Part shown: piece by piece, positions 1,841-53,650 of the stretch
Position numbering within the stretch: the first letter of the stretch is position 1
Layout: each line of letters starts with the position of its first letter
NCBI RefSeq assembly: GCF_014647155.1
Contig: NZ_BMOQ01000003.1
Location: forward strand, 370,512 to 434,511
Source of the DNA: Halarchaeum nitratireducens
Lineage (GTDB): Archaea > Halobacteriota > Halobacteria > Halobacteriales > Halobacteriaceae
DNA length: 64,000 bases
Direction of reading: 5' to 3'
Made by a program: the position numbers and the translations under genes
The notes under the pieces: generated by a model
What the model was told of the DNA's origin: nothing
Databases searched by the model: none
What the model saw: the letters and a program-made list of their open reading frames with translations, nothing else

Positions 1841-2306
1841 ACGACCTTTTACTGCGAGCGCCCTTCGGACGCTCTGGTAAAAGCTCGGCCACCGTAGGAA
1901 GCGAGGCTTCCTACTGTTCAGTCAGAACGCGGGGCGTTCTGACGACAAAAGCCGTCGTCGGGTGCTTCGCACCCTCTTCGGCCTCGCCTTCGGCGAGCGA
2001 ATCGGCGACCTTCCGGGCGCCGGGCGAGAACAAAGTTCTCGCTCGCCCACACTCGCTCCGCTCGCGTGGACTCCTCGAGCCGCTCGGTTGCCGAACGCTA
2101 GCCACGTGGCTTGTTCATCGAGTGTCGCTACCGAAGACGGACAAACAACGCGGCGAGCATCCGCGAGCGAGTGGCTTGAAAAGCCCGAGCGAAGCGGTTC
2201 ACTCGCGGCGAAGCCGCGAGGCCCGAGACCCACCGAAGGTGGGTCGCTGGGCTTTTGGCCGAGCTTTTGCCAGAGCGCGCCCGCAGGCGCGCTCGCAGTA
2301 AAAGAT
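1841..2306. repeat. Intergenic inverted-repeat element A (two stem-loop modules facing inwards)
   Basis: This 0.47-kb gene-free stretch is a run of GC-rich hairpins. Its left end (1846-1883, CTTTTAC...GTAAAAG) and right end (2264-2304, CTTTTGC...AAAAG) are inverted copies of each other, each followed inwards by GCTCGGCC. Inside the right end are a CCACC-TTCG-type hairpin near 2230 and a GCGGCGAAGCCGC hairpin near 2207-2220 next to TTCAC. The same order of motifs recurs at 19941-20392, 21120-21361 and 42083-42250. No open frame here looks real. The metY promoter, if leaderless, would lie at the left edge; the right hairpin sits 4-6 bases beyond the HxlR stop codon and may act as its terminator. 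Confidence 0.75.
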
Positions 2307-19940: not shown

Positions 19941-20392
19941 CGACCTTTTGCAGCGCGCGCTATGCGCGCTTGCAAAAACTCGACAAAAAGCCTTCCTCGC
20001 CCCCTGACGGGGATTCGTCGGCCTCGCCCTCCGGGCGAGTGAACCGCGCGACGAGCGGCGACCGCTCGTCGCGCGGACGCTGACCAGTTGGAACGTTCGG
20101 CAGCCGAAACGTGGTCAAACCACGGTATAAGCGTTCGGCGATCGAGTAGTCCGTCAAGACCCGGAGTCGGGCGAGAACTCCGTTCTCTCTGAGTCACACT
20201 CGGCCCTGCGGCCTCGCGTGACGCCCGCCGGTTCCGGAGCGACTCCGTCGCGCCGATCGCGTTCGTTCGCGGTACTCACTTGCGAAGCCACCGAGCGCGA
20301 AGCGCTCGGGCGCAACGACCACCGAAGGTGGTCCGCTGCGCTTTTGGTCGAGCTTTTGCCAGCGAGCCGAAGGCGAGCGCAGCAAAAGGTCG
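19941..20392. repeat. Intergenic inverted-repeat element B (two stem-loop modules facing inwards)
   Basis: The stretch 19937-20430 has no gene. Its left module opens with TTTTGCA...TGCAAAA (19946-19977), then an ACTCGAC-AAAAAGCC block, a CCCCTGACGGGG hairpin, CCTCGCCCTCCGGGCGAG followed by TGAA, and a perfect 15-base-pair stem (20044-20058 with 20062-20076), then GGACGCTGACC. Its right module (20353-20388, CTTTTGC...GCAAAAG) is the inverted counterpart with GGTCGAGC and an ACCACCGAAGGTGGT hairpin at about 20321-20335. The first hairpin begins nine bases after the preceding stop codon. Shares order and sequence with elements A, C and D. Confidence 0.78.
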
Positions 20393-20430: not shown

Positions 20431-21030
20431 ATGGCGGACCTATTCGGCGCGTCGCTCTCGCTCGTCCTCGTCGTCGCGGGCGTTGCGCTCTGCATCGCGG
20501 AGGCGTTCGCGCCCGGTGCCCACTTCGTCGTCATCGGCGTCGCGCTCCTCGTTGCGGGCCTCGCCGGCGTGCTCCTTCCGGGCGTCGTCACGCCCGTCGT
20601 GCTCGCCCTCCTCGTCTTCGTCGTGGGCGTGCTGGCGCTCTGGGGCTACCGGCGCTTCGAACTGTACGAGGGAAGCGGTCGCGGGAAGACGGAGGGATCG
20701 ACGTCGCTGCGCGGCGCGCGTGGCGTCGTCACGGACCGGGTCACGGGCTCGTCGGGACAGATTCGACTGACCGACGCCGGGGGGTTCGACCCGACGTACG
20801 CCGCCCGCACCATCGACGGCGCCGACGCGATCGAGGAGGGAACGGACGTGATCGTCGTCGACCCTGGGGGTGGGAACGTACTCACCGTCGCGGAGACCGA
20901 CGGCGCGGACGACATCGACCGCGAACTCGCAACGGGACGGGAGGCGGCGGCGGAACGAGAAGCGGAGGCGAACGCGGAACGAAACGCGGAGGCGGAGGAG
21001 ACGGACGGCGAGGCGGAGCGGGAGCGGTAG
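20431..21030 (+). CDS. NfeD-like membrane protein
   Basis: 199-residue partner of stomatin-type proteins. Three hydrophobic helices occupy residues about 5-72 (LSLVLVVAGVALCIAEAFAPG, VVIGVALLVAGLAGVLL, VLALLVFVVGVLALWGY), followed by a soluble OB-fold domain (GARGVVTDRV ... DAIEEGTDVIVVDPGGGNVLTVAE). The last 45 residues are Glu/Ala/Arg-rich low complexity. It lacks the serine protease domain of long NfeD proteins. The stomatin gene downstream fits the conserved NfeD-stomatin pairing in membrane quality control. The stop codon falls inside the first unit of a 19-base tandem repeat. Confidence 0.85.
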   Translation: MADLFGASLSLVLVVAGVALCIAEAFAPGAHFVVIGVALLVAGLAGVLLPGVVTPVVLALLVFVVGVLALWGYRRFELYEGSGRGKTEGSTSLRGARGVVTDRVTGSSGQIRLTDAGGFDPTYAARTIDGADAIEEGTDVIVVDPGGGNVLTVAETDGADDIDRELATGREAAAEREAEANAERNAEAEETDGEAERER

Positions 21031-21119
21031 GCGGATGCGGGAGTGGTAGGCGGATGCGGGGGCGGTAGGCGGATGCGGGAGTGGTAGGCGGATGCGGGGG
21101 CGGTGGGCGGATGCGGTAC
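21026..21119. repeat. 19-bp minisatellite, about five units
   Basis: A 19-base unit beginning GGTAGGCGGATGCGGG recurs with starts at 21026, 21045, 21064, 21083 and 21102; the last is slightly diverged (GGTGGG) and truncated. The 17th to 19th bases alternate between AGT and GGC. The first unit contains the TAG stop codon of the NfeD-like gene, so the array is its 3' untranslated region. Length variation between strains would be expected. Confidence 0.9.
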
Positions 21120-21361
21120 GGGAACCGCGAGCGATCCTGCTCGCGCCTTCGCCGCGAGGTCCGAAGACCCCTCCCGTGGAGGGGTCTGACGGACATTTTG
21201 CGTGCGAGACGCCTTCGGCGTGGTTCGAGACGGCGGAGCCGTCTCGTCATCACGAAAGACGCGTCGCGTCTTTCGAACGATCTCGCTGCATAGACAGAAA
21301 TCGAAGATTTCCGGCGATGGTCGAGCTTTCGCAAGCGCCGAAGGCGCGCGGCAAAAGGTCG
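21120..21361. repeat. Intergenic stem-loop element D
   Basis: Between the minisatellite and the stomatin gene is a run of hairpins: ACCCCTC...GAGGGGT near 21170-21187, GACGCCTTCGGCGT near 21208-21221, GACGGCGGAGCCGTC near 21230-21244, and AAAGACGCGTCGCGTCTTT near 21254-21272. It closes with the module terminus GGTCGAGCTTTCGC...GCAAAAGGTC (21319-21360), the same terminus as elements A, B and C. There is no partner terminus on its left side, where the minisatellite starts. No gene is seen. The stomatin promoter (GCTTTATCCC, about 21369-21378) lies just beyond it. Confidence 0.65.
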
Positions 21362-40974: not shown

Positions 40975-42072
40975 ATGGAGTACGAGGAACCGCTTTTCTT
41001 CACGGTGATGCAGTACGCGGACGCCGCCGAGCGCGATGTCGTCGACATGGTGTCGGGGAACCCCGACTGGGGCGCGCCCGACGGGATCAGCGAGGGCCTC
41101 CACGACTACGCGGACACCGGCGGCGAACAGTTCCAGTATCCGCCGAGCGCCGGCCTCCGCGAGCTCCGCGAGCGAATCGCCGAGCGCCGCGGCGTCGCCA
41201 CGGAGCGCGTGATCGTGACGAACGGCGGCGGGATGGCGAACACGCTCGGGATGGCGCGCGCCCTCGAACGCTTCGACGGCTCCGAGGTCCTGATGGCCGA
41301 TCCCGTCTACCCCTACTACCCCGGTAAGGCGGAGATGCTCGGCGGCGTCCAGCGCTTCGTTCCCGTCGACGACACGGGTTGCCTCGACGCCGCCGACGTC
41401 CGCGCCGCGGCGAGCGACGAGACGGCCTGCATCGTCGTCAACACGCCGAACAACCCCACGGGGGCCGTCTACCGCGAGGAGACGATGCGCGAACTCGCCG
41501 CCGTCGCCGAGGACTACGACGCCATGCTCGTCTCTGATGAGGTGTACGACCACTTCGACTTCACGGGCGAGTTCACGTCGGCGCTCGCGCTCAACTCGGA
41601 GCACGTCGTCGTCACGAACTCCTTCTCGAAGACGTACGCCATCACGGGCTTCCGCGTCGGCTACGTGGTTCTCCCCGCGCGCGACGCCCCCGCGGCCCGG
41701 ACGCGGAACATGTTGACGAACGTGGCGACGAGCCGCCCCGCGCAGGCCGCGGTCCTGGAGGCGCTGCGAACGACGGACGCCTCCTACCACGAGGCGAACC
41801 GCGAGCGCCTCCGCGAGCGGGTCGAGACCTTCACCGCCGCCCTCGATCGCGCCGGCGCGGCGTACACCACGCCCGAGGGGGCCTTCTACGTCCTCGCGCG
41901 CTTCCCCGACTACCCCGGCACGATGGCGAACGCGAAGCGCCTCATCGACGAAGCCGGCGTCGCCGGGATGCCCGGCGAGGCATTCGGAGCGGCCAGAAGC
42001 GACTGGCTCCGCTTCGCGCTCGTCTCCCCGCGCGTCGACACCGCCGCCGAACGACTGGCTGAGTACTTCTAA
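40975..42072 (+). CDS. Class I/II PLP-dependent aminotransferase
   Basis: 365-residue fold-type I enzyme. Visible: VSGNPDWGAPDG at the start, GGEQFQYPPSAGLRELRERIA, VNTPNNPTGAVY (the conserved NNPTG), SDEVYDHFDF (cofactor Asp and Tyr) and the PLP lysine in NSFSKTYAITGFRVGYVV. Family assignment is secure; specificity (aspartate, aromatic or other amino acid) cannot be read from the sequence. A stem-loop module starts 16 bases after its stop codon. Confidence 0.92.
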   Translation: MEYEEPLFFTVMQYADAAERDVVDMVSGNPDWGAPDGISEGLHDYADTGGEQFQYPPSAGLRELRERIAERRGVATERVIVTNGGGMANTLGMARALERFDGSEVLMADPVYPYYPGKAEMLGGVQRFVPVDDTGCLDAADVRAAASDETACIVVNTPNNPTGAVYREETMRELAAVAEDYDAMLVSDEVYDHFDFTGEFTSALALNSEHVVVTNSFSKTYAITGFRVGYVVLPARDAPAARTRNMLTNVATSRPAQAAVLEALRTTDASYHEANRERLRERVETFTAALDRAGAAYTTPEGAFYVLARFPDYPGTMANAKRLIDEAGVAGMPGEAFGAARSDWLRFALVSPRVDTAAERLAEYF

Positions 42073-42082
42073 ACGACCTAAC

Positions 42083-42250
42083 GTACCCTTTGCCGCGCTC
42101 GTTCGCTTCGCTCACTCGCTGGCAAAAGCTACGACAAAAGCGCATCGGACCCCCTTCAGGGGTCCTCGCGCCTCGCGGCGAAGCCGCGAGTGAATCGCGG
42201 GACTACCGGGTCCTGTCGGACCACTCGTCCCGCGAACGCTGGCCCGCGTC
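42083..42250. repeat. Intergenic stem-loop module C
   Basis: This begins with CTTTGCC...GGCAAAAG (42088-42128), then a block ACGACAAAAGCGCATCGG, a CCCCTTCAGGGG hairpin (about 42150-42161), CCTCGCGGCGAAGCCGCGAG with TGAA after it, and a two-tier stem: CGCGGGAC (42196-42203) with GTCCCGCG (42227-42234) enclosing GGTCC (42209-42213) with GGACC (42218-42222). GAACGCTGGCC follows. Motif order and spacing match the left half of element B and the right half of element A inverted. I see no clear opposite terminus; the remainder to 42361 has no gene. Confidence 0.75.
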
Positions 42251-42361: not shown

Positions 42362-42682
42362 ATGGTCCGTGTCTCCCTCCACACCTTCGTTGCAGTGTGC
42401 TTAATCGTCCTTGCAGGCTGTGCCGCTATAAACCCTCTATCGCCATCGAACAACCAGAACTCACAGTACCACCTTCACGTTCAGCAAGCAGACGGGAACG
42501 TTTCATCCGGCGATGCGGTCCAATTCGATGAGCTGACTCCTGCCCAACAGCGGGTCTTCAAGCACGCGCTTCAGAAGGGGATCGCTGACGTGCCGAAGAA
42601 TGTCAGTGTCCACCCGTGGACTCACTACCGCTACGTGAGATATGACAACCACACGTATGACGCGGTCGTGTCCACGCAGTAG
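42362..42682 (+). CDS. Small AT-richer lipoprotein
   Basis: 106-residue secreted protein. The signal peptide FVAVCLIVLAGC has a lipobox cysteine near residue 20 and no twin arginine, so Sec export is likely. The mature part has FDELTPAQQRVFKHALQKGIADV, a short helical motif seen in other haloarchaeal surface proteins, then VRYDNHTYDAVVSTQ. Base composition is about half G+C (30 of 60 bases in 42421-42480), against 46 of 60 in 43021-43080, which suggests transfer from a different source. Function unknown. Confidence 0.72.
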   Translation: MVRVSLHTFVAVCLIVLAGCAAINPLSPSNNQNSQYHLHVQQADGNVSSGDAVQFDELTPAQQRVFKHALQKGIADVPKNVSVHPWTHYRYVRYDNHTYDAVVSTQ

Positions 42683-53608: not shown

Positions 53609-53611
53609 CGA

Positions 53612-53641
53612 CCGATCCGATCCGATCCGATCCGATCCGAT
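53612..53641. repeat. (CCGAT)6 microsatellite
   Basis: CCGAT is repeated six times without interruption at 53612-53641, in the 42-base gap between two convergent genes. Such arrays mutate by slippage. Length variation here would not affect either reading frame. Confidence 0.95.
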
Positions 53642-53650
53642 TCTCGCGTC

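Follow-up and report, generated by a model that had tools for sequence, protein, structure and literature searches.

We analysed a 64-kb window of a Halarchaeum genome (the window being the whole stretch of DNA, at its full length) in which hairpin modules lie at the ends of genes. One complete copy, module D, begins behind an aminotransferase-like ORF, whose stop codon TAA lies at 42070-42072, and is followed by a small orphan ORF. The modules of the window, their hairpins (P1 to P5) and the matches to our covariance model (CM) are as follows.

42083..42240, plus strand: module D, complete (P1 to P5 plus GAACGCT); CM match 42124-42240, 128.5 bits
42083..42131, plus strand: P1 of module D, the T-run end of the module; foot GTA/TAC with a C.C mismatch, stem CCTTTGC/GCAAAAG and an apical hairpin
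42140..42171, plus strand: P2 of module D; outer GCGC/GCGC and inner GGACCCC/GGGGTCC, from pair counts
42172..42190, plus strand: P3 of module D; CTCGCGGC/GCCGCGAG, then TGAA, from pair counts
42195..42235, plus strand: P4 of module D; TCGCGGGAC/GTCCCGCGA around P5 and the conserved unpaired ACCG / ACTC, from pair counts
42209-42222, plus strand: P5 of module D, inside P4; GGTCC/GGACC, from pair counts
42234..42240, plus strand: conserved end motif GAACGCT of module D (GRAYGCT in the family), from alignment A3
42362..42682, plus strand: 106-aa orphan ORF adjoining module D, with an N-terminal signal/lipobox-like stretch
1842..2099, plus strand: module A-left, with hairpin insertions; CM match 1942-2099, 57.7 bits
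2156..2308, minus strand: inverted module A-right; lies behind a minus-strand gene that ends in TAG; CM match 2156-2268, 117 bits
19941..20081, plus strand: module B-left, behind a TGA stop; CM match 19974-20081, 67.9 bits
20258..20392, minus strand: inverted module B-right, located upstream of the following gene; CM match 20258-20357, 53.6 bits
21140..21361, minus strand: degenerate module (terminus at 21357); partial CM match 21140-21194, 25 bits

All six termini named in the original prediction were found in place, and all fit one covariance model, the one at 21357 only as a degenerate partial copy. The compensatory change quoted in that prediction is exact: the pair G42200-C42230 of module D corresponds to C20049-G20071 in element B. 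Orthologous modules occur in two other Halarchaeum genomes for module D and at two loci (L155 and L156) for module A-right. Two tandem repeats were also seen in the window, one of about 20 bp (GGTAGGCGGATGCGGGAGT..) at 21025-21115, at and behind an ORF 3' end and just before the degenerate module, and a short CGATC repeat at 53609-53650 that fills the gap between two converging ORFs.

We built the covariance model (R1) on the core P2-P5, with 116 positions and 33 pairs, from 11 copies, the window termini 42124 and 2156- (two of the six) among them, and ran the search of this genome and of other haloarchaea that had been proposed. The model finds 37-40 copies in this genome and 20-37 in each of the four genomes of the genus; element B, used as a sequence query, hit about 28 further places in the genome. 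Module copies are present in 24 of the 26 genomes of the family and in 87 of 194 genomes of the class (haloarchaea), mostly at 1-6 copies per genome outside the family but at 11-12 in one genus. Among 197 genomes of the phylum there were no matches outside Halobacteria, and all 17 positives belong to the same order as this genome. Halobacterium is the largest other genus of the family; one genome of the same genus (G012; 2.4 Mb, 99% complete) holds no module, against 14-33 in its congeners. Rfam, at gathering and at relaxed thresholds, gave no match to the module in the window or the element loci, and neither did collections of plasmids, phages and viruses, searched with a single exact pattern and a single query; we found no paper on such a family in the open-access literature. 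The module family is apparently unnamed, in keeping with the original prediction, which knew of no named family to fit.

Read inward from the gene, a module follows the stop codon with P1, a linker with a second A-run, P2, P3, TGAA, P4 around P5, and GRAYGCT, giving five hairpins over 165 bp or more. The end had been proposed as GNACGCTGRCC; a conserved end motif is indeed there, but its true form is GRAYGCT. The foot of P1 consists of 3 bp that covary over 84 copies (CGA/TCG, GTA/TAC, GAA/TTC, GCA/TGC), and pairing ends abruptly outside it. Above the foot stands CTTTTGC/GCAAAAG, then a variable apical hairpin, and a second flavour of P1 reads CTTTTTGC or CTTTTTCC. P2 combines 4 outer bp with an inner hairpin, and the P4/P5 region holds conserved unpaired CGGG and CCRCTCG. 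Modules stand singly, in head-on (inverted) pairs, or in pairs around a small orphan gene. Close pairs in Halobacterium leave 26-29 bp between their GRAYGCT ends in nearly every case, the lone exception being a 94-bp gap with an extra module-like insert, while pairs in Halarchaeum are separated by 35-69 bp or by 190-1,400 bp that hold a small low-GC orphan ORF, usually membrane- or secreted-looking. No Pfam family scored over cut-off for these orphan cargo ORFs, the 106-aa ORF next to module D included. A coding role of the module interior was rejected, since the cargo ORFs differ and match no family over cut-off, and the idea of helical phasing between 28- and 49-bp linkers was dropped because of too few cases.

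Some modules harbor other hairpin elements. A twin hairpin of 55-67 bp, TGGTTCGA-stem-TCATCAC-GA-stem-CGAACGAY, is nested in the degenerate module at 21221-21281 and recurs at other loci (L037, L141, L169, L274-L291), with 46 exact matches to its pattern in 26 genomes and none to the reversed pattern. In about 12 of the 20 loci viewed it is nested in P1 or P2 loops of a module; it also occurs between CCTCGGGGTCAAG and CCCGAGG stretches (possibly IS200/605-like right ends) and, apparently, within a Y1 transposase gene. Further nested hairpin pairs with shared sequence lie in P5, P1 or P2 loops (window 1985-2090, L034, L126, L031) and read GGGCGAGA..TCTCGCTYGCCC or GGGCGACCC..GTYGCCC..GGCCAGNGGGACG; such pairs were seen in Halarchaeum, the second type also in another haloarchaeal family.

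In 60 of the 95 modules with a clear T-run, this run starts within 14 nt of a stop codon, with a sharp peak at 4-7 nt; a stop codon was counted if its frame was open for at least 100 codons. When positions were drawn at random from these loci, 5.6% had such a stop codon within 20 nt. Since T-stretches are the intergenic termination signal in Haloferax (PMC7237163), the T-run of a module is probably the transcription terminator of its gene. Like the Haloferax T-stretch terminators with hairpins (PMC7237163), the modules combine hairpins with a T-run just behind the gene; they differ in that their hairpins, built of several parts and conserved at the level of DNA, come after the T-run. By a rough gene call, only 5 of the 28 window genes with a gap of >30 bp have a T4 run within 80 nt. 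Some module ends lie upstream of genes rather than behind them.

RNA genes are occupied as well. Two modules lie directly behind tRNA genes (L104 and L167); five more, at L124, L129, L136, L043 and L117, come directly after a 20-27 nt copy of a tRNA 3' end, located 74-111 nt behind the intact tRNA. Five genomes that belong to other families or genera (L105 and L125-L128) have the module behind the 3' end of a conserved non-coding sequence, with a repeat of this end on the far side of the module.

Two further observations were made at such sites. The insert between a tRNA and its duplicated 3' end also holds an inverted piece of the T-arm. Tandem cassette arrays lie behind conserved non-coding sequence at L292 (6739-9574), L293 (6498-7615), L296 (5017-7033) and L295; the non-coding sequence, perhaps an H/ACA RNA, has no Rfam match. 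Repeats ending CTACTAGTAGA..GTAGTGTTCCGGGCGTACA divide the cassettes, whose genes are of toxin-antitoxin type (UPF0175 with DUF3368, DUF5615 with DUF433, Fic/Doc), and one cassette in these arrays is the hairpin module.

We used pair counts as a read-out for the conservation of structure. In alignment A3, 91% of cells are paired and 60 cells show two-sided changes, against 21 in shuffles. In alignment A4, which comprises 122 distinct copies, 89.7% of cells are paired against a comparison value of 67%, the covariation score is 0.40 against 0.13, and two-sided changes occur at all 33 of the 33 pairs. The proposed conservation of structure under changing letters is borne out by these counts across many copies. 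The observation also exceeds chance: GACCTTTTGC-like sites number 9 with 1.0 expected, the model hits this genome 37-40 times, and the 197 phylum genomes gave no hit outside Halobacteria.

Strong covariation and a position behind coding genes are what a structured RNA, either a 3' UTR element or a small RNA, would display. An RNA under selection would be expected to tolerate G.U but not A.C. The modules contain 26 G.U and 29 A.C in 22 well-paired columns (45 and 48 overall, and 17 and 22 in single modules alone), whereas the SRP RNA of 30 haloarchaea, our control, contains 272 and 9. One-sided and two-sided changes stand at 22:481 in the modules and at 203:286 in SRP RNA. The loops point the same way. 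Several had been read as TTCG, as in stable RNA tetraloops; in perfect stems they are instead C(TTC)G triloops whose opposite strand reads C(GAA)G, and the sense-strand loops, C(TNC)G, are neither UUCG nor GNRA. Loops of the types TNC/TNNC or GNA/GNNA close 182 of 285 distinct hairpins (64%) versus 45 of 357 control hairpins (13%), and these 182 place GNA/GNNA on the bottom strand in 141 cases and on the top strand in 41 (p 5e-14). GNA/GNNA-type loops form exceptionally stable DNA mini-hairpins (PMC4686876). Folding energies computed with DNA parameters favour the bottom strand in 111 of 122 modules, with a weaker bias in control windows (147 vs 94). Because G.U equals A.C, one-sided changes are few and DNA-type loops lie mostly on the bottom strand, whatever maintains the pairing acts on DNA: the shape of the module is conserved in DNA, not in RNA. 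Correction at the DNA level could in principle mask an RNA signature, but the likely terminator T-run also comes before the hairpins and Rfam offers no match, and we regard the RNA reading as very improbable. Of the original alternative, "RNA or cruciform", the DNA half gains support from the mini-hairpin loops and their strong bottom-strand bias, and the RNA half is left unsupported by pairing that is strand-symmetric, unlike that of the SRP RNA of the same organisms.

Two processes would keep pairing at the DNA level, selection for the folded DNA itself and correction of palindromes by template switching, and they are indistinguishable here. The modules could in the extreme be largely neutral palindromes, perfected by template switching during replication (quasi-palindrome correction) under little or no selection. 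Two-sided changes dominate and intermediates are rare; template switching, too, gives two-sided changes and strand symmetry, and stable bottom-strand hairpins would favour such events. Yet the C.C mismatch at the P1 foot is left uncorrected in 52 of 84 copies, unpaired motifs are conserved and the 26-29 bp spacing is fixed, which argues that correction alone is insufficient. The order and lengths of the hairpins are likewise kept and occupancy is conserved across genera, and a neutral origin seems improbable to us.

Orthologous gene ends carry modules in at least two genomes in 25 groups, two of which span Halarchaeum and Halobacterium. By Pfam, the occupied gene ends include those of TBP, release factor aRF1, a KaiC-like ATPase, PAC2, the thermosome and a SurE-like protein. 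Occupancy at such core genes, together with the fixed distance to stop codons and the placing of both ends of pairs usually behind the stop codons of converging genes, would suit an element that acts at the gene end in cis only, as a boundary and a terminator in both directions. Its DNA hairpins or cruciforms would block read-through or, like BIMEs, hold supercoiling, and it would be inherited vertically and move rarely or never. We consider this doubtful, though a possibility of some weight. Sharing a gene end makes copies hardly more similar (0.851 vs 0.836 for copies at other sites, p 0.07), orphan genes lie between inverted ends, near-identical tracts occur at ectopic sites, and a cruciform does not need strand-biased loops. 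Some copies at thermosome genes are clearly orthologous and show paired changes in P1. We rejected vertical descent of individual copies and claim conserved occupancy alone, not descent of the sequence, because orthologous-site copies do not resemble each other significantly more than other copies do.

The contents of shared sites differ. Site D has the ORF in the genome of the window, while G003 has another insert there, G002 has none and G001 differs in sequence; at the TBP end, two species share a lipoprotein-like gene that two others replace with different content; and the site of module B-right has no element in genome G003 (L142). The ectopic tracts, 96% identical over 148 bp and 98% over 130 bp, connect two site pairs with unrelated flanks; the ~148-bp tract, detected by BLAST, lies in module A-left and in a module elsewhere in the genome (L035). 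As the sites are shared while their contents differ, and as near-identical tracts occur ectopically, stable occupancy is combined with turnover of sequence and cargo.

Inverted termini, copy number, cargo and presence or absence between species are also what one would expect of the ends of a plain selfish non-autonomous transposon (MITE), with terminal inverted repeats and no role at gene ends. Known haloarchaeal MITEs resemble these elements in being non-coding, with inverted ends and 400-500 bp long; in the modules, however, the ends are structural units of varying sequence, and gene-end occupancy is conserved. The outermost bases vary with pairing, leaving no conserved terminal repeat, many copies are single-ended, and the distance to the stop codon is fixed. 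No clean empty site with a target duplication was found at protein genes, the compared species being too divergent, and there is no partner transposase. We deem such a transposon improbable, if a little less so than a neutral origin.

The reading we tentatively favour, at somewhat less than an even chance, is that the modules are site elements of folded single-stranded DNA. They would be dispersed or homogenised in trans and kept at the ends of genes, where their T-run probably terminates transcription. The bottom strand, when single-stranded, would be recognised through its fold by a putative recombinase or copying machinery acting in trans, and the same machinery may have dispersed the copies and may still homogenise them. 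Copies at gene ends would be retained because the T-run 4-7 nt behind the stop codon would serve as a terminator, on both sides where genes converge. Movement or recombination of modules may be read from the ectopic identity, the differences in cargo at site D and the duplicated 3' ends at RNA genes. No recombinase or transposase was linked to the modules, and nothing in the functions of the cargo genes would account for mobility. The Y1/RAYT transposase was rejected as the mover: Y1 (PF01797) is absent from G000, G016 and G019, which nevertheless carry about 30 or more copies, whereas the module-free G012 has it.

Two known systems come close to this picture. REP elements and BIMEs are bacterial palindromes of conserved sequence, 20-40 bp long, marked by a GTAG or CGTC tag and associated with a RAYT transposase of the Y1 type. 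The modules share with them many extragenic copies near gene 3' ends (as in the 60 of 95 above), hairpins and frequent inverted pairs, but are at least 165 bp long with five hairpins and free sequence, and this genome has no Y1 gene. In place of a conserved palindrome with a tetranucleotide tag, every one of the 33 pairs shows two-sided change. Integron attC sites resemble the modules in conserving fold over sequence, in favouring the bottom strand, in a GAA-type loop triplet (PMC2727003) and in lying directly behind a stop codon; unlike attC sites, the modules lie behind core genes and have five hairpins instead of one. The attC boxes RYYYAAC/GTTRRRY occur in 0 of 122 copies, and no integron integrase (IntI; TIGR02249) scored over cut-off in 26 genomes. 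As membership in both families failed when tested, we propose that the modules are REP- and attC-like in logic but neither. A stronger version, which we think rather unlikely, makes them single-stranded DNA recombination sites at haloarchaeal gene ends, an attC counterpart with a putative recombinase through which orphan genes and toxin-antitoxin cassettes would be inserted and exchanged behind core and RNA genes.

Covariation is usually taken as proof of RNA structure, and here a large module family bears the opposite signature. Counting G.U against A.C, together with loop type by strand, provides a simple computational test for telling folded DNA from folded RNA. The family points to a putative machinery that works on single-stranded DNA where archaeal genes end, and G012 offers a natural comparison for finding the cognate factor of the module. 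The modules also point to a place where orphan genes enter otherwise stable chromosomes. If the attC counterpart is true, small orphan and toxin-antitoxin genes would be exchanged in these archaea behind core and RNA genes.
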